Below, in pieces: positions 53,754 to 60,886 of a stretch of 64,000 nt of DNA. The translations under genes and the position numbers were made by a program. The stretch comes from Actinomarinicola tropica. Lineage in GTDB: Bacteria > Actinomycetota > Acidimicrobiia > Acidimicrobiales > SKKL01. The notes below the pieces were generated by a model, which saw nothing but the letters and a program-made list of their open reading frames with translations, was not told where the DNA came from and did no database searches. How positions within the stretch are numbered: position 1 is the stretch's first letter; each line of letters opens with the position of its first letter. The DNA lies in NCBI RefSeq assembly GCF_009650215.1, contig NZ_CP045851.1:2941001-3005000 (forward strand). The letters run 5' to 3'.

Positions 53754-54635
53754 TCAATGGAGCGCTAGGTACGGGGCGAAGTGGCCGCTGGTATGGAACG
53801 CGACAGACAGTGCACTCGCACCCACCAGTGCGATCCCGGCTGCCGCCGCGGCCACAAGCGGATGCGCCTCGGTCGGCGCAACCGCGAGCTGTCGGGCGCG
53901 AAACTGGGTCATCTCCGGTGCGCACGATGCCCGCACGTGCAGAGCCACACCTTGGATGTTGGCGGCAAGGCGCCGGCGCCGGGAGATCTCCGAACCCGCA
54001 GCGGCCTCATCGGCGGCACGTTCGATGGCCACCCTCATGGCCGCGGCAGTGCGCATGGCGAACGGGAGGAACGGCACCACCGCTTCGAGGGTGAGCGTGA
54101 GCACGGTCGCTCGGCGGTCCTTGGCGCGAAGGTGGGCACGCTCGTGATCGATCACGAAGTGCAACATGTCCTCGTCGAGTTGTTGGCGAAGGCCCTCGGA
54201 GATCACGATCTGCGAACGCCGTCCGGGAACGTTGTACGCAACTGGGATGGTGGTCGGCAGGACCACCAGGTCGTGCGTGTCGGTCCTGCGGTGCTCGCCG
54301 AGCCACCCGTCAGCGCGGGCCGCCTTGTGGGCACTCCTGGCGCGGATCAGCAACGGCGCCGTCCGGCAGATGATCCACACCGACAGCAGCGTCGCCACGA
54401 TCGATCCGCCGCGACCTCCAGGGGCGAGGTGTCCGGCGGTGGAGGCTGGTGAAGCCAGCAGCAGGTTCACCGCCGCCGAGAGAGCGAGAGCGGCCGCGAT
54501 GCACACCAATCCCATCGCCACTGCGACGGCGGAGAGTCGGGCGAACCACCGGGGGCTCGCTGCCACCAGCGGCCGAGGGCGGATCCCGGGCAACGCGACC
54601 GCGACCAGTCCGCACAGGAGCAGAAGGACGGTCAT
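53754..54635 (-). CDS. M56-family (BlaR1-like) membrane metalloprotease
   Basis: This 293-residue protein has four membrane helices, two at the N-terminus and others near 75-95 and 255-280. A zinc protease motif, VIDHERAHLRAKD, lies near residue 160, with the third ligand Glu in IERAADEAA. It lacks the penicillin-binding sensor domain of true BlaR1. M56 proteases cleave the paired BlaI-type repressor, encoded immediately upstream with a 4-base ATGA overlap. Confidence 0.9.
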   Translation of the reverse strand: MTVLLLLCGLVAVALPGIRPRPLVAASPRWFARLSAVAVAMGLVCIAAALALSAAVNLLLASPASTAGHLAPGGRGGSIVATLLSVWIICRTAPLLIRARSAHKAARADGWLGEHRRTDTHDLVVLPTTIPVAYNVPGRRSQIVISEGLRQQLDEDMLHFVIDHERAHLRAKDRRATVLTLTLEAVVPFLPFAMRTAAAMRVAIERAADEAAAGSEISRRRRLAANIQGVALHVRASCAPEMTQFRARQLAVAPTEAHPLVAAAAAGIALVGASALSVAFHTSGHFAPYLALH

Positions 54636-55006
54636 CGCGATCCTTCGTCGAGGATCTCGCGCACGCGACGACGGCGCCGAGCGTCCATACCGCCGAGGAA
54701 GTGGCTCAAGGCCGTCTCCGGGTCATCCGCCGCTTCGAGCAACCTGGTCATCCGCTCCGCGGTCTGCTCTCCTCGGCCCCGCACCGGGTGGTAGGTGAAC
54801 GCCCTGCCGGATCGTCGACGATCGACGATGCCCTTCTTCCACAGACGACGAAGGATCGTCATGACCGTCGAGTAGACGACAGGCGGCTCCGAGCCGACCC
54901 TCTCGAGGACCTGACGGGGTGTCATCCAGCCATCGCCGTCCCACAGGATCGACATGACCTCAGCCTCGAGCTCACCCATCCCTCGTCGACTCGGTCGGTT
55001 CGTCAC
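54632..55006 (-). CDS. BlaI/MecI/CopY-family repressor
   Basis: This 124-residue winged-helix repressor shows MGELEAEVMSILWDGDGWMT, PRQVLERVG, VVYSTVMTILRRLWKKGIVD and RRRSGRAFTYHPV, then a dimerisation helix with a likely protease-sensitive site. GTG at 55006 follows GGGAGAA. It faces the CPBP protease gene across 132 bases holding a related palindrome. The target set may include the DsbA-VKOR operon, which has a perfect version of that palindrome. Confidence 0.9.
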   Translation of the reverse strand: MTNRPSRRGMGELEAEVMSILWDGDGWMTPRQVLERVGSEPPVVYSTVMTILRRLWKKGIVDRRRSGRAFTYHPVRGRGEQTAERMTRLLEAADDPETALSHFLGGMDARRRRRVREILDEGSR

Positions 55007-55120: not shown

Positions 55121-55137
55121 TGCGACACGCTGTACGA
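55121..55137. promoter_or_regulatory. imperfect palindrome TGCGACA-CGC-TGTACGA
   Basis: The right arm TGTACGA is identical to the site at 57450-57466 and the 3-base spacing is the same; the left arm matches in four of seven positions. It lies directly before the ATG of the CPBP gene (55139) and upstream of the divergent BlaI gene, a reasonable place for an autoregulatory operator. Confidence 0.5.
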
Positions 55138-55138
55138 C

Positions 55139-55837
55139 ATGACGTGCCAGAGAGTACCCGTGGCACCCTCGCCCGGGTTCGTCCGGTTCCTTCCGATCCT
55201 CGGCGGCTACGTCATGGCGGTGTTGGCGTCTGCGGTCACCGGCGGGATGGGTGCCGCGGCCAGTGGTGACGCCGATGGTGTTGTCGCGCTCGTCGCAGGT
55301 CAGATCGGCTTCTGGTCGATCCTCATCGGTGTGGTCGTGTACGCACGAGCACAGTTCGGCGTATGGGTGGTGGGCTCGACGGCCGCGGAACTTCGATGGA
55401 CCGATGTCCCGGTCGGCCTCGCCATCGGCGCGTTGACCCAGCTCGTGGCCCTGCCCGCCCTGTACCTCCCGTTCCGTTCGTTGTTCGACCTCAGCGAGAT
55501 GTCGGCGCCGGCCGATGAGCTGTTGGGCGACCTCGGTGGTGGCGGCCTCATCGTCGTGGGTCTCGGCGTGGTGATCATCGCACCCATCGTCGAGGAGCTC
55601 TTCTTTCGCGGATTGCTCCTTCGAACCATGCGCGCACAGTGGGGCACGGCCACAGCGGTCCTCGGGTCATCGATCATCTTCGGCGCGACCCACTTTCAGC
55701 CACTGCAGTTCGCCGGCCTGACCCTGGCTGGCCTGATCTTCGCTGGCGCCACCGTCCGCACCGGGCGCCTCGGCTCCGCCATCGCGGTACACGTCGGGTT
55801 CAACGCCACGACCTTCGCTGCCCTCGTCCTGCTCTGA
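55139..55837 (+). CDS. CPBP-family intramembrane metalloprotease
   Basis: This 232-residue protein has about six to seven helices. The motifs of the CAAX-type/Abi family are VEELFFRGLLLRTMRAQWGT (EExxxR), FGATHFQP and HVGFNATT, which together form the membrane-embedded active site. Family members process prenylated proteins or bacteriocin factors. It is divergent from BlaI. Start at 55139 overlaps the palindrome, which would suit repression. Confidence 0.9.
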   Translation: MTCQRVPVAPSPGFVRFLPILGGYVMAVLASAVTGGMGAAASGDADGVVALVAGQIGFWSILIGVVVYARAQFGVWVVGSTAAELRWTDVPVGLAIGALTQLVALPALYLPFRSLFDLSEMSAPADELLGDLGGGGLIVVGLGVVIIAPIVEELFFRGLLLRTMRAQWGTATAVLGSSIIFGATHFQPLQFAGLTLAGLIFAGATVRTGRLGSAIAVHVGFNATTFAALVLL

Positions 55838-55867
55838 ACGCACGAGGCAGCCTCAGCGGCCGGCGTG

Positions 55868-56134
55868 TCACGAGGACCCACGGGGCACCGGCGGAGTTCC
55901 GCCGTCGTCGTGATCGTCGGTTCCGGGTCCAGAAGAGGGGCGCCCGGGCGGGTTGCCGACGGGATTCGACCGCGGCGGCACGGGCTGTCGACGTCGATGG
56001 CGGACGATCAGAACCACACAGATGAGGATCCACACGGCCGTCAGGGCGAACCCGGCGAGGGCAGCGACGTTGTTCGGGCTGTTCCCGCCGTTGGTGGCGC
56101 CTGCAGCGAAGAGCATCATGTGAGGTCCGTTCAT
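55868..56134 (-). CDS. small single-helix membrane protein
   Basis: This 88-residue protein has one hydrophobic helix (NVAALAGFALTAVWILICVV) followed by a basic, Pro-rich cytoplasmic tail (RHRRRQPVPPRSNPVGNPPG). It overlaps the VKOR gene by 4 bases (ATGA) and is the last gene of the DsbA-VKOR operon. It has no Cys in an external loop, so a direct thiol role is not evident; it may stabilise VKOR. Confidence 0.6.
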   Translation of the reverse strand: MNGPHMMLFAAGATNGGNSPNNVAALAGFALTAVWILICVVLIVRHRRRQPVPPRSNPVGNPPGRPSSGPGTDDHDDGGTPPVPRGSS

Positions 56135-56778
56135 GTCGACAGCAGCGATGACCAGTAGTCCCAGAACCGTTGCGCCACCAGGCCCGCGATGATGAGGTAC
56201 CAGCCGGTCAGCACCACCCCGTGGTATGTCCGTACCAACATCCGGACCCGGGCCGGAACCGGCACGATCCGCTGGTCGGCGTTGTGCAGCGTGGTGTACC
56301 AGAACAGCGGGATCATCACGGCCCACACGACCATGCAGTACGGGCACAGGGCGTCGATGCGGTAGAGGCTCTGGAAGATCAGCCAGTGCACGAAGACGAC
56401 CCCGAAGGTCACGCCCGCCTGGAGTCCGAGCCAGAACCAGCGCCTGAACGACGCTCCTGCGGCCATCGCCATCCCGACGACGACCACTCCCATGAACCCG
56501 GCAACGCCGATGATCGGGTTCGGGAAGCCGAACACCTCGGCCTGATCGGTGCGCATGATCGAGCCACAGCTCAATATGGGGTTGATGCTGCAGCTCGGGA
56601 CGTAGCTGGGGTCTTCGAGCAGGGCGATCGTCTCGATGAGCAGAGTGAAGGCCGCCACCAAGCCCACTGCGCCGGCCACGATCAACAACCAGGTCAGGCG
56701 CAGCTCGGACAAGGTGGCGACAGTCGACCCAGACGACCCACCGCGTGCATCCGCCGCACGGTGGAGTTGGTCAGCCAC
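56131..56778 (-). CDS. VKOR-family thiol-disulfide oxidoreductase
   Basis: This 215-residue membrane enzyme reoxidises DsbA with quinone. The VKOR marks are the loop pair CSINPILSC, the active-site LCPYCMVVW and the five-helix layout with Asn-Pro in FPNPIIGVAG. It is encoded next to a DsbA-type partner and overlaps it by 8 bases, the usual pairing in actinobacteria, which lack DsbB. Confidence 0.93.
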   Translation of the reverse strand: MADQLHRAADARGGSSGSTVATLSELRLTWLLIVAGAVGLVAAFTLLIETIALLEDPSYVPSCSINPILSCGSIMRTDQAEVFGFPNPIIGVAGFMGVVVVGMAMAAGASFRRWFWLGLQAGVTFGVVFVHWLIFQSLYRIDALCPYCMVVWAVMIPLFWYTTLHNADQRIVPVPARVRMLVRTYHGVVLTGWYLIIAGLVAQRFWDYWSSLLST

Positions 56779-57406
56779 CGATCGCCTGCTCGATCATGGC
56801 CTGGAGCTCCTCGAAGCTCTCCACCTCGACCTTCTCGCCATCGAGGAAGAAGGTCGGCGTGCCCGTGACGCCGAGTGCTTGGCCGTCGGCCTTGTCCCGG
56901 CGGATCTTCTCGAGCGTGGCGGGATCGTCGTAGACGCCACGGAACTGCTCCATGTCGAGACCGAGATCTTCCGCGAGGCCGAAGAACACGTCTTCTTGTG
57001 ACTGATCGCTCTCACCCCATTGGGGCTGTGTCTCGAACAGCAGGTCGTACATCTCTTCGAACCGTCCTTGCGCGGCCGCGGCCTCGGCCGCCTGCGCTGC
57101 CGCCTCGGAGTTGTTGTGCAGCGGGAAGTTCCGGACCACGAACGTCATGTCGTCCCCGTAGGCAGATCGCAACTGCTCGACCATCGGGTGCGCGGCGCGG
57201 CACGCCTCGCACTCGAAGTCGAGGAACTCCACGAACGTGGCGTCGGTGTCGCCCGTGGACAGACGTTGGCTGTCGGCGCGCACTACCTGCGGCCCCGCGG
57301 CATCCGGCGCGGTCCCGCCAGGATTGCCCTCGGTGTTGGCGACGATCAGAGCCACCCCAACAGCGGCGACGACCATCACCAACGAGATCTTCACGTTCCT
57401 GCTCAC
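56771..57406 (-). CDS. DsbA-like membrane-anchored thioredoxin-fold protein
   Basis: This 211-residue protein has an N-terminal signal anchor (VKISLVMVVAAVGVALIVA) and a DsbA domain with CEAC in FLDFECEACRAAHP, VRNFPLHNNSEAAAQAAEA and the cis-Pro loop GVTGTPTFFLDG. It introduces disulfides into exported proteins. GTG at 57406 is preferred because the anchor begins there; a farther upstream start would run through the palindrome. It is the first gene of the operon ahead of VKOR. Confidence 0.92.
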   Translation of the reverse strand: MSRNVKISLVMVVAAVGVALIVANTEGNPGGTAPDAAGPQVVRADSQRLSTGDTDATFVEFLDFECEACRAAHPMVEQLRSAYGDDMTFVVRNFPLHNNSEAAAQAAEAAAAQGRFEEMYDLLFETQPQWGESDQSQEDVFFGLAEDLGLDMEQFRGVYDDPATLEKIRRDKADGQALGVTGTPTFFLDGEKVEVESFEELQAMIEQAIGG

Positions 57407-57449
57407 GTCTCTCCGATCCGCCAGGCGGACAATGCCCGGCGCCACTAAG

Positions 57450-57466
57450 TCGTACACTATGTACGA
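57450..57466. promoter_or_regulatory. perfect palindrome TCGTACA-CTA-TGTACGA
   Basis: Seven-base arms with a 3-base centre lie 44 bases upstream of the DsbA start, in the divergent region shared with the ArsR-family gene. TACA-N-TGTA cores are the hallmark of BlaI/MecI/CopY operators, and a related site adjoins the BlaI gene at 55121-55137. Likely operator of the DsbA-VKOR operon. Confidence 0.6.
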
Positions 57467-57517
57467 GATGAGATCGCATCAGCATCGGGGCACTTGCGTC
57501 TCGCCCGCTCTCGTGAC

Positions 57518-57537
57518 ATCTTCACAGATGTGAAGAT
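57518..57537. promoter_or_regulatory. perfect 9-2-9 palindrome, ArsR/SmtB operator
   Basis: ATCTTCACA-GA-TGTGAAGAT is a perfect 20-bp palindrome that overlaps the proposed GTG start of the ArsR-family gene. SmtB/ArsR repressors bind such hyphenated dyads. TTGCGT at 57494 would be the -35 of a leaderless promoter covered by this site. Confidence 0.7.
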
Positions 57538-57937
57538 ATCGACGGAGCCTGCTTCGACACTGGACGCGTGTGCGGTCCGTTGTGTCGATCCCGACAAGGT
57601 GGCGGCGACTCGCGATGTCCTCTTGGCCGGACATGAGGCAGAAGCCTTGGCCGACTGCTTCAAGCTGCTCGGAGAACCGAACCGTGTGCGCATCCTCTAC
57701 GCGCTCCTCGAGGCTGGCGAGCTGTGCGTGTGCGACCTTGCTGCAACCGTCGGCGTCTCGGAGACCGCTGTCTCACACGCAATGCGCCTGCTGCGCGGCG
57801 CCGGCATCGTCCGCAACCGCCGTGACGGCCGGATGATCTACTACCGCCTCGACGATGCTCACGTCCGAATGCTTCTCGACCTGTCTCGAGAGCATCTCCT
57901 GCACGGAACCCCACCCGACGAGAGCGGAGACCGCTGA
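57530..57937 (+). CDS. ArsR/SmtB-family metal-responsive repressor
   Basis: This 135-residue winged-helix repressor has the ELCVCDLAATVGVSETAVSH helix with the metal-site Cys66 and Cys68, plus Cys14 and Cys18 near the N-terminus (DACAVRCVDPD), the four-Cys set seen in CadC-type sensors of Cd, Pb or Zn. The GTG at 57530 is chosen over an in-frame TTG at 57494 because the palindrome would otherwise lie inside the coding region. It is followed by TGATG-coupled CDF transporter, so it controls a metal-export operon. Confidence 0.88.
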   Translation: MKISTEPASTLDACAVRCVDPDKVAATRDVLLAGHEAEALADCFKLLGEPNRVRILYALLEAGELCVCDLAATVGVSETAVSHAMRLLRGAGIVRNRRDGRMIYYRLDDAHVRMLLDLSREHLLHGTPPDESGDR

Positions 57938-58875
57938 TGGGTGCCGACCACTCCCACAACCATGGTGGCGGCGCGTTGCGGGCCGGTGCTCGGCACCAGA
58001 AGCGCCTGGCGATCTCGTTCGTCCTGATCGCCACCTTCTTCGTCGTCGAGGCCGTCGGCGGAGTGCTCACCAACTCTCTCGCCCTCCTCTCCGATGCCGG
58101 GCACATGCTCACCGACGCCATCGGGATCGGCATGGCGCTGGCCGCCATCCAGCTCGCCTCCCGCCACGCCGAACGCGCCGCCACCGACCGGGGCATTGGG
58201 CAGAACACCTTTGGCCTCTACCGACTCGAGATCCTCGCCGCCTTCGTCAACTCGCTGCTCCTCTTCGGCATTGCCATCTACGTCCTCGTCGAGGCGGCCC
58301 AACGGATCACCGGCGAACCCGAGGTGCTCGGCATCCCGATGCTCGTCGTCGCGGGCCTCGGGCTCATCGTGAACCTGGTCGCTTTCGCGCTTCTCCGAGA
58401 AGGGTCCAAAGAGAGCCTCAACGTCGAGGGCGCCTACCTCGAGGTCCTCGCCGACACCCTCGGCTCGGTCGGTGTCATCGTCGCAGCCATCGTGCTCGAG
58501 GTGTCGGGATGGACCTGGGTCGATCCCGTGGTCGGGGCCGCCATCGGGCTCTGGATCCTGCCCCGCGCCTATCGCCTTGGCGGTCAGGCGGTGCGCATCC
58601 TGCTCCAAGCCGCGCCCCCCGATGTCGATCTCGAGGCCATGCGGGCAGAGCTCGGTGCGCTCTCCGGTGTGGTGGATGTCCACGACCTCCACGTCTGGAC
58701 CCTCACCTCTGAGATGGAGAACGCCTCGGCACACCTCATGGTGAGCGTCGGAACCGACACACACGACGTGCTCGACCAGGCTCGGGAGGTCCTGCAGACC
58801 CGGTTCGGCATCGCGCACGCCACCCTCCAGGTCGAGCCCGCCGACCACCAAGGATGCGACGAGCTCCAATGGTGA
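57937..58875 (+). CDS. CDF-family metal cation exporter (CzcD-like)
   Basis: This 312-residue protein has a His-containing N-terminus (GADHSHNHGGG), six membrane helices, and a cytoplasmic ferredoxin-like domain (VHDLHVWTLTSEMENASAHL). The helix 2 metal residues are conserved in LLSDAGHMLTDA (His, Asp). In helix 5 the family's HxxxD reads EVLADTLGS, with Glu for His, so ion selectivity may differ from Zn-specific members. It exports Zn, Cd or similar by proton antiport. Coupled by TGATG to its repressor. Confidence 0.92.
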   Translation: MGADHSHNHGGGALRAGARHQKRLAISFVLIATFFVVEAVGGVLTNSLALLSDAGHMLTDAIGIGMALAAIQLASRHAERAATDRGIGQNTFGLYRLEILAAFVNSLLLFGIAIYVLVEAAQRITGEPEVLGIPMLVVAGLGLIVNLVAFALLREGSKESLNVEGAYLEVLADTLGSVGVIVAAIVLEVSGWTWVDPVVGAAIGLWILPRAYRLGGQAVRILLQAAPPDVDLEAMRAELGALSGVVDVHDLHVWTLTSEMENASAHLMVSVGTDTHDVLDQAREVLQTRFGIAHATLQVEPADHQGCDELQW

Positions 58876-58942
58876 GCGACCACCGGAGCACGATCATCGT
58901 CGACCGCTCCGACGCTGATCGATGTATCTCGGGAGACTGCTG

Positions 58943-60886
58943 ATGAGCGATTCCTGCTGCGCTGGCCCAGCGAGAGAAGCGGGATCCGACTCCCCAAGTG
59001 GTTGGCAGGAAGGGTGGCGGACCATCGCCGCTGGCACCGCGGCGACCGCATGGCTGGTCGGGATCGTGGCCGGCATCTCCGATGCGGACACTGCCGCCGA
59101 TGTGGCGTTCGTGGTCGCGGTCGTGGCGGGCGGGTTGACGTTCGTCCCATCGTCGCTCAGGGCGCTGCGCGGTGGGCGTGTCGGTGTCGGCCTCTTGATG
59201 ACCATCGCCGGCGCCGGAGCGCTCGTCTTGGGTCAACTCGGTGAGGCGGCGGCATTGGCGTTCCTTTTCTCGGTGTCCGAAGCGCTCGAGGACTGGGCGG
59301 TGACGAGGGCCCGACGTGGTCTGCGCGCGGTGCTGGAGCTCGTCCCCGAGACCACGCTGGTGCGGCGCGACGGCGTAGTCGCCGAAGTCGCCACCGACGA
59401 CGTTCGCACTGGTGAGGTGATCGTGCTGCGTGCCGGAGCGCGCTTGGTGACCGACGGCCTCGTCTCAGAGGGCCAGTCGGTCCTCGACGTGTCGGCCGTG
59501 ACCGGCGAGTCGATCCCCGTCGAATGCACCGCTGGCGACCGGGTCGTCGCAGGGAGCATCAACGGCGGTGGGCAGCTCGACATCATCGCGACGGCCGCCC
59601 CCGCCGACAGCACCCTCGCCCGCATCGTTCACACGGTGGAGGAGGCCCAGGAGCACAAGAGCAACGCACAGCGCCTCGCCGACCGGGTAGCGCGGCCGTT
59701 GGTACCGGGGATCATGGTCCTCGCTGCCGCCATCGCGTTCGTGGGGTCCGTCGTCGGCGACCCAGATGTGTGGATCGAACGGGCGCTGGTGGTCCTCGTC
59801 GCCGCCGCACCGTGCGCGTTGGCGATCTCTGTTCCGGTCACCACCTTCGCGGCGATCGGCGCCGCCACCCGGACCGGCACGGTCATCAAGGGCGGCGCCG
59901 CCCTCGAAGCTCTCGCCCGAGTACGGGTCGTCGCCTTCGACAAGACCGGAACCCTCACCCGCAACCGGCCGGTGGTGGTCGACGTGGCGACCAACGGCAC
60001 CAGCCGCGACACCGTGCTCGGCCTCGCCGCCGCCCTCGAAGCCAACAGCGATCATCCCCTCGCCGCGGCGATCACCGCCGCTGGGCACCCGACCGGACCC
60101 GCATCAGATGTCCAGACGATCGCCGGCGCGGGCATCACCGGCCAGGTCGGTGACCACGACGTTCGTCTCGGCAGTCCCCGCTTCGTCCCCGGCGGCCCCC
60201 TCGACACCGAGGTCGCCCGAATGATGGAGTCCGGAGCCACCGTCGTCATCGTCGAGCGCGACCGGACACCCATCGGCGCGATCGCGGTGCGCGACGAGCT
60301 CCGCCCCGAAGTTCCCACCATCATCGAGTCGCTGCACCGCCTCGGCATCCACACGACGATGCTCACCGGCGACCACCGCGCCACCGCCGTCGCCATCGCT
60401 CGCGCCGCAGGGATCGACGACGTGCGCGCCGAGCTGCTTCCCGATGACAAGCAGACGGCGATCACCGAGCTGCGGAGCAGGGCGGCGGTGGCGATGGTCG
60501 GCGACGGCATCAACGATGCCCCGGCTCTCGCCACCGCCGATGTCGGGATCGCCATGGGCGCCCTCGGCTCCGATGTGGCGGTCGAAGCCGCCGATATCGC
60601 CATCATGGGCGACCAGCTCACCCACCTGCCCGCGCTGGTCGGCCACGCTCGGCGAACACGACGGATCATGGTCCAGAACCTGGTCCTGTCGGGTTTGATC
60701 ATCGCCGCCCTCGTCCCCATCGCCGCCGTCGGCATGCTCGGCCTCGGCACGGTGGTGGCCGTCCACGAAGGCGCCGAGATCCTCGTCATCGCCAACGCCA
60801 TGCGGGCGCGGTCCAACCCCGAGCGGCCTGCCGCTCGACCGATCCGAAACCGCGACCAGTCGGAACTCGCCCATGCCCACGCGTAG
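58943..60886 (+). CDS. P1B-type metal-transporting ATPase
   Basis: This 647-residue pump has TGES (188-191), the transmembrane metal motif APC (289-291, in VAAAPCALAIS), the phosphorylation site DKTGT with Asp333, HP in NSDHPLAAAI, and MVGDGINDAPAL. The last helix has HEGAEILVIAN. The HEG mark suggests the P1B-4-like group (usually SPC), here with APC. There is no N-terminal metal-binding domain, only SDSCC. GGGAG precedes the ATG at 58943. It probably shares substrate with the CDF exporter. Confidence 0.9.
   Translation: MSDSCCAGPAREAGSDSPSGWQEGWRTIAAGTAATAWLVGIVAGISDADTAADVAFVVAVVAGGLTFVPSSLRALRGGRVGVGLLMTIAGAGALVLGQLGEAAALAFLFSVSEALEDWAVTRARRGLRAVLELVPETTLVRRDGVVAEVATDDVRTGEVIVLRAGARLVTDGLVSEGQSVLDVSAVTGESIPVECTAGDRVVAGSINGGGQLDIIATAAPADSTLARIVHTVEEAQEHKSNAQRLADRVARPLVPGIMVLAAAIAFVGSVVGDPDVWIERALVVLVAAAPCALAISVPVTTFAAIGAATRTGTVIKGGAALEALARVRVVAFDKTGTLTRNRPVVVDVATNGTSRDTVLGLAAALEANSDHPLAAAITAAGHPTGPASDVQTIAGAGITGQVGDHDVRLGSPRFVPGGPLDTEVARMMESGATVVIVERDRTPIGAIAVRDELRPEVPTIIESLHRLGIHTTMLTGDHRATAVAIARAAGIDDVRAELLPDDKQTAITELRSRAAVAMVGDGINDAPALATADVGIAMGALGSDVAVEAADIAIMGDQLTHLPALVGHARRTRRIMVQNLVLSGLIIAALVPIAAVGMLGLGTVVAVHEGAEILVIANAMRARSNPERPAARPIRNRDQSELAHAHA

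Follow-up and report, generated by a model that had tools for sequence, protein, structure and literature searches.

Two boxes lying 2.3 kb apart in the genome of Actinomarinicola tropica are, as comparison of sequences suggests and with a probability that we put at roughly 0.7, both operators of a BlaI/MecI-family repressor encoded beside one of them. In this reading, cleavage of the repressor by its M56 protease partner upon an envelope signal would derepress disulfide-bond formation together with neighboring envelope genes. The window is the whole stretch of DNA that was analyzed, 64,000 nucleotides of contig NZ_CP045851.1, and the features of interest within it are as follows.

53754..54635, minus strand: M56 membrane zinc protease without a sensor domain (PF05569; conserved HERAH and ERAAD)
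54632..55006, minus strand: blaI, BlaI/MecI-family repressor (PF03965, E 7.6e-22; placed by the clade tree)
55121..55137, no strand: box 2, TGCGACA-CGC-TGTACGA, between blaI and the CPBP gene
55139..55837, plus strand: CPBP/Rce1-like membrane protease (PF02517; ATG at 55139)
56131..56778, minus strand: vkor (PF07884, E 1.3e-44; overlaps dsbA)
56771..57394, minus strand: dsbA (PF13462 and PF01323; 76% over 172 amino acids with the homolog at locus L092)
57450..57466, no strand: box 1, TCGTACA-CTA-TGTACGA, a perfect 7-3-7 palindrome 56 to 72 bp upstream of the likely dsbA start
57494..57937, plus strand: divergent ArsR-type regulator (PF01022)
57518..57537, no strand: arsR-promoter palindrome, ATCTTCACA-GA-TGTGAAGAT, at the arsR start and separate from the BlaI box

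Two boxes in a copper and cytochrome oxidase assembly neighborhood

From the left, the gene order in the window is DUF1775, SCO1, PCuAC, BacA/UppP, M56, and BlaI (all minus strand), CPBP (plus), VKOR and DsbA (minus), and ArsR, a cation-efflux protein, and a P-type ATPase (plus). Both boxes sit in a copper and cytochrome oxidase assembly neighborhood: the SCO1, PCuAC, and DUF1775 genes share the window with them, and genes for CtaG, a P-type ATPase, and DUF305 are found beside the homologous BlaIs of relatives. The blaI open frame extends to 55045, and homologs point to a GTG at 55006 as the likely start. The M56 gene overlaps blaI by 4 bp and likewise follows blaI in relatives. The open frame of dsbA reaches 57457, which would overlap box 1; its start is likely the GTG at 57394, equivalent to the start of the L092 homolog. 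The dsbA and vkor genes likely form one operon, and box 1 might also act on arsR. Box 2 adjoins the CPBP start codon, and ∼115 bp separate it from the likely start of blaI.

The earlier note had described a perfect palindrome at 57450 and a second site at 55121 with the same right arm and spacing, and both sequences were found at these positions as described. The two boxes agree in their right arm, TGTACGA, and in having a 3-bp gap, and the three mismatches of box 2 to the box 1 palindrome all fall in the left arm. The genome scan that the note had suggested, carried out like all genome-wide counts as pattern searches, returned one perfect copy of TCGTACA-N3-TGTACGA in 3.7 Mb. The form common to both sites, TNNNACANNNTGTACGA (T-N3-ACA-N3-TGTACGA), which was fixed only after the homologs had been inspected, occurs in the genome at these two places only, and its reversed control gave 0 matches. 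Four near matches elsewhere (one or two mismatches; L002, L003, L004, and L009) were examined as regulon members and rejected, as all of them lie within genes. With up to three mismatches, three box 1-like matches are found in the window versus 0.85 expected from shuffles, and for the blaI-CPBP gap alone such a match arose in 14 of 3,000 shuffles. A scan for sigma-70-type promoters recognized none beside either box, a result that is uninformative for a GC-rich actinobacterium.

Recurrence of the box with one BlaI clade

The window BlaI was aligned with its 50% relative, and this alignment served as the query against 84,980 genomes. Ten loci were recovered, all titled Acidimicrobiia, Acidimicrobiales, or Acidimicrobiaceae. 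In a tree of 46 BlaIs, the window protein and these ten relatives form one clade (support 93/91; one change), whose signature around the helix is Y[SA]T[VA].TILRRLWKK. An order-wide search showed a score gap between the clade (∼180 bits and above) and other BlaIs (143 bits and below); judging from contig coordinates, the matches above the gap are apparently the same loci as those already found.

When up to two mismatches are allowed, the window palindrome occurs four times in the clade loci (102 kb), compared to 0.075 times in shuffles, and once in 374 kb of control loci with other BlaIs or box-free dsbA genes. The TNNNACANNNTGTACGA form occurs five times in the clade loci, compared to 0.007 times in shuffles, and in a 479-kb control it matches only the G083 site, which had itself been fetched for its matching palindrome. 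Because the second pattern was chosen with the homologs in view, it is the first test, with the window palindrome alone, that carries weight.

The boxes of relatives lie at genes that match those in the window. At L092, dsbA-vkor is preceded by the box GTCATACAGACTGTGCGAC, 73 bp upstream, and the order on one strand is dsbA-vkor-box-orf-ctaG-blaI-M56; this locus has a box before dsbA-vkor and another before ctaG-blaI-M56. The ctaG-blaI-M56 operon also has a box upstream at L090 and L091, and at L089 a box lies in the gap that separates blaI from a divergent gene for a lipoprotein. Boxes are found upstream of CPBP in the window, L091, and L093, with weak candidates in L090 and L092, and upstream of DUF305 in L088 and L091. 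A gene for a lipoprotein/thioredoxin-fold protein has identical boxes upstream in L092 and L093. Only two genomes, those of the window and L092, have a box at dsbA, since the remaining fetched loci yielded no dsbA. The dsbA orthologs of four further genomes (G238, G005, G325, and G247) have no box upstream, and searches did not find a BlaI of the clade in these genomes.

Among the closest relatives of the window BlaI (73 to 75% identity), no box was seen at L084 to L086; the sequences of L084 and L086 start at or within blaI, and that of L085 starts within the upstream operon. The metagenome-assembled genome ANT-92 (L084, L085, and L087) holds three blaI-M56 copies of the clade, each preceded by a relative of the lipoprotein/thioredoxin-fold protein, which has no Pfam match.

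Alignment of the boxes gives T-N3-ACA-G[AT]C-TGTACGA, in which one half is strong and the other is variable. Therefore, the right arm singled out in the earlier note is the conserved part. The note had also assigned the boxes a TACA/TGTA core, as in the dyads of the BlaI family. The dyads seen near blaI are instead ACA-N3-TGT with a variable left arm and one TGTACGA half, and they differ from the TACA-N2-TGTA arrangement of Firmicutes. The enrichment and the positions at matching genes are comparative sequence evidence in support of its central proposal, a single BlaI-type regulon covering CPBP/BlaI and DsbA-VKOR. Its view that such a regulon serves oxidative protein folding rather than a beta-lactamase agrees with the dsbA-vkor link and needs widening, since these genes are one part of a larger envelope copper/redox set within a copper-handling island.

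Other regulators considered for the boxes

Box 1 lies between the divergent dsbA and arsR genes, and it might instead belong to the arsR-CDF-ATPase operon (57494-60886), with dsbA a mere neighbor and BlaI or another factor controlling metal efflux. L092 lends this some support through a weak box, CTATTACACAGTGTCGCAA, 63 bp before its arsR match. We consider it unlikely, however, as dsbA of L092 keeps its box even though arsR is 9 kb distant, and arsR promoters carry a palindrome of their own, TTCACA-N2-TGTGAA (in the window, L100, and L089; imperfect in L092). Box 1 was also considered as the operator of ArsR and rejected: it is not conserved at the arsR promoters of relatives, which share the other palindrome. 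Since ArsR has its own conserved palindrome, it does not explain box 1.

Somewhat less likely still is that the boxes serve another regulator, such as a TetR-type protein or a BlaI paralog encoded at another locus. The A. tropica genome does hold at least two other BlaI paralogs, which fall outside the clade, and the single other perfect copy of the palindrome among 296 genomes of the class, in G083, is near an MFS-transporter-type gene. Against this, box enrichment is limited to loci with the clade of the window BlaI. The paralogs are associated with another box that shares the N3 gap and occurs at a multicopper oxidase gene, a blaI, and a gene for a DUF305 protein, with a variant before the gene for an HMA-type P-type ATPase in the same genome.

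A. tropica genome, 555-640 kb and 3024-3026 kb: CTACGACA-N3-TGTCGTAG sites (L059, L060, L078, L079, and L083), some copies within open frames

These sites probably represent a separate copper regulon. The helix of the paralogs (AYTTVMTIL) differs from that of the clade (YSTVMTILRRL), which fits the differing boxes, and the N3 gap of the paralog box argues for ACA-N3-TGT as the spacing of BlaI sites in the class. Apart from sites of the CTACGACA type, 8-bp dyads at the tested distance were mostly absent from the promoters of non-clade BlaIs. One of the paralogs (633783-634129 of the genome; L060) spans two reading frames and is therefore frameshifted or misassembled.

Least probable is the chance pairing, after the fact, of an unremarkable palindrome with a random half match, for although the left arm of box 2 matches at only 4/7 positions, three-mismatch matches are not rare genome-wide, and the pair was picked with both boxes in view, TNNNACANNNTGTACGA is unique to the two sites in 3.7 Mb, and the unaltered palindrome is enriched in relatives, where boxes recur at the same genes.

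A predicted BlaI/M56 switch and its relation to known systems

Actinobacterial genomes commonly encode BlaI/M56 pairs that lack a penicillin sensor, and for most of these pairs we know of no account of the genes under their control. The conserved box, which links a single clade with DsbA-VKOR and with copper and oxidase-assembly genes, defines a concrete, testable candidate regulon, and it suggests how some bacteria tune extracellular disulfide-bond formation. With BlaI as the regulator of both boxes, the reading we favor, a BlaI dimer would bind T-N3-ACA-N3-TGTACGA, repressing CPBP and probably also blaI-M56 from 55121, and dsbA-vkor from 57450. An envelope signal, most likely excess copper or thiol-redox imbalance, would reach M56, which would cut BlaI at a conserved His-Phe bond; loss of intact BlaI would then derepress disulfide-bond formation and neighboring envelope genes. 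Copper or thiol stress is a more likely signal than a beta-lactam because of the neighbors SCO1, PCuAC, CtaG, DUF305, and P-type ATPases. There is no beta-lactamase at the locus, and the genome's single class-A-type match is located ∼1 Mb away.

The window M56 protein has 293 amino acids, its domain matches are to M56/M48 only, and the zinc site residues of HERAH (HExxH) and ERAAD (ExxxD) are invariant in ten homologs. A C-terminal penicillin-binding sensor domain is absent from this protein and from the ten homologs. The window BlaI has a Penicillinase_R winged-helix domain (PF03965), also matches 2g9w and MecI, and contains no cysteine. A His-Phe pair is invariant in 11/11 BlaIs at the position that is cut as Asn-Phe in Staphylococcus aureus, where BlaR1 cleaves BlaI at Asn101-Phe102 (PMC9834060). 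The staphylococcal BlaI-BlaR1 and MecI-MecR1 systems share with the window a penicillinase-repressor protein with a Phe conserved at the cleavage position (a predicted one in the window), ACA/TGT dyads (candidate operators in the window), and an adjacent M56 protein with HExxH and ExxxD motifs, both of which BlaR1 carries (PMC9834060). In contrast, the window M56 is without the penicillin-binding sensor, the boxes have N3 spacing, and the candidate targets are dsbA-vkor, CPBP, and copper/oxidase-assembly genes.

The closest solved relative of the window BlaI is BlaI of Mycobacterium tuberculosis (Rv1846c; 2g9w, E 3.4e-14), also an actinobacterial protein. Its targets beyond beta-lactamase include, in the parts of the publications available to us, the ATP synthase operon, ftsQ, and sigC (PMC12565901, PMC8265638). 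A BlaI regulon with members other than lactamases therefore has a precedent. The same parts name no disulfide-bond or CPBP target, and overlap with the full M. tuberculosis regulon is possible. The CopY/CopR copper repressors resemble the window BlaI in DNA-binding family, copper setting, and ACA/TGT operators (putative ones in the window). CopY, however, senses copper by C-terminal CXC motifs and has the operator RNYKACANNYGTMRNY with N2 spacing (PMC7253601), whereas the window BlaI, without cysteine, has no CXC and the boxes have N3 spacing and do not match RNYKACANNYGTMRNY. The lack of cysteine makes copper sensing in the manner of CopY unlikely.

In the literature searched, with subscription journals mostly outside its scope, there was nothing direct on BlaI with DsbA, VKOR, CtaG, or copper, and dsbA or vkor was nowhere described as a BlaI target. 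CutRS of Streptomyces directly controls a VKOR gene, which shows that dedicated control of such a gene is possible in an actinobacterium (PMC10433416). CutRS resembles the regulator predicted here in acting on a VKOR gene in an actinobacterium, but it is a two-component system and not a BlaI/M56 pair.

A more specific version, which we offer tentatively and regard as somewhat doubtful, is that the sensor-less BlaI/M56 pair is an envelope copper/thiol switch in which M56 itself would sense the signal via conserved histidines and cut BlaI, derepressing DsbA-VKOR, CPBP, CtaG, and related envelope genes together. A role for H69 and H281 of M56 in metal sensing is speculation. Among the ten M56 homologs, H69, in an HLAP/HLSP loop, is present in nine, and H281, near the C terminus, is present in all ten.
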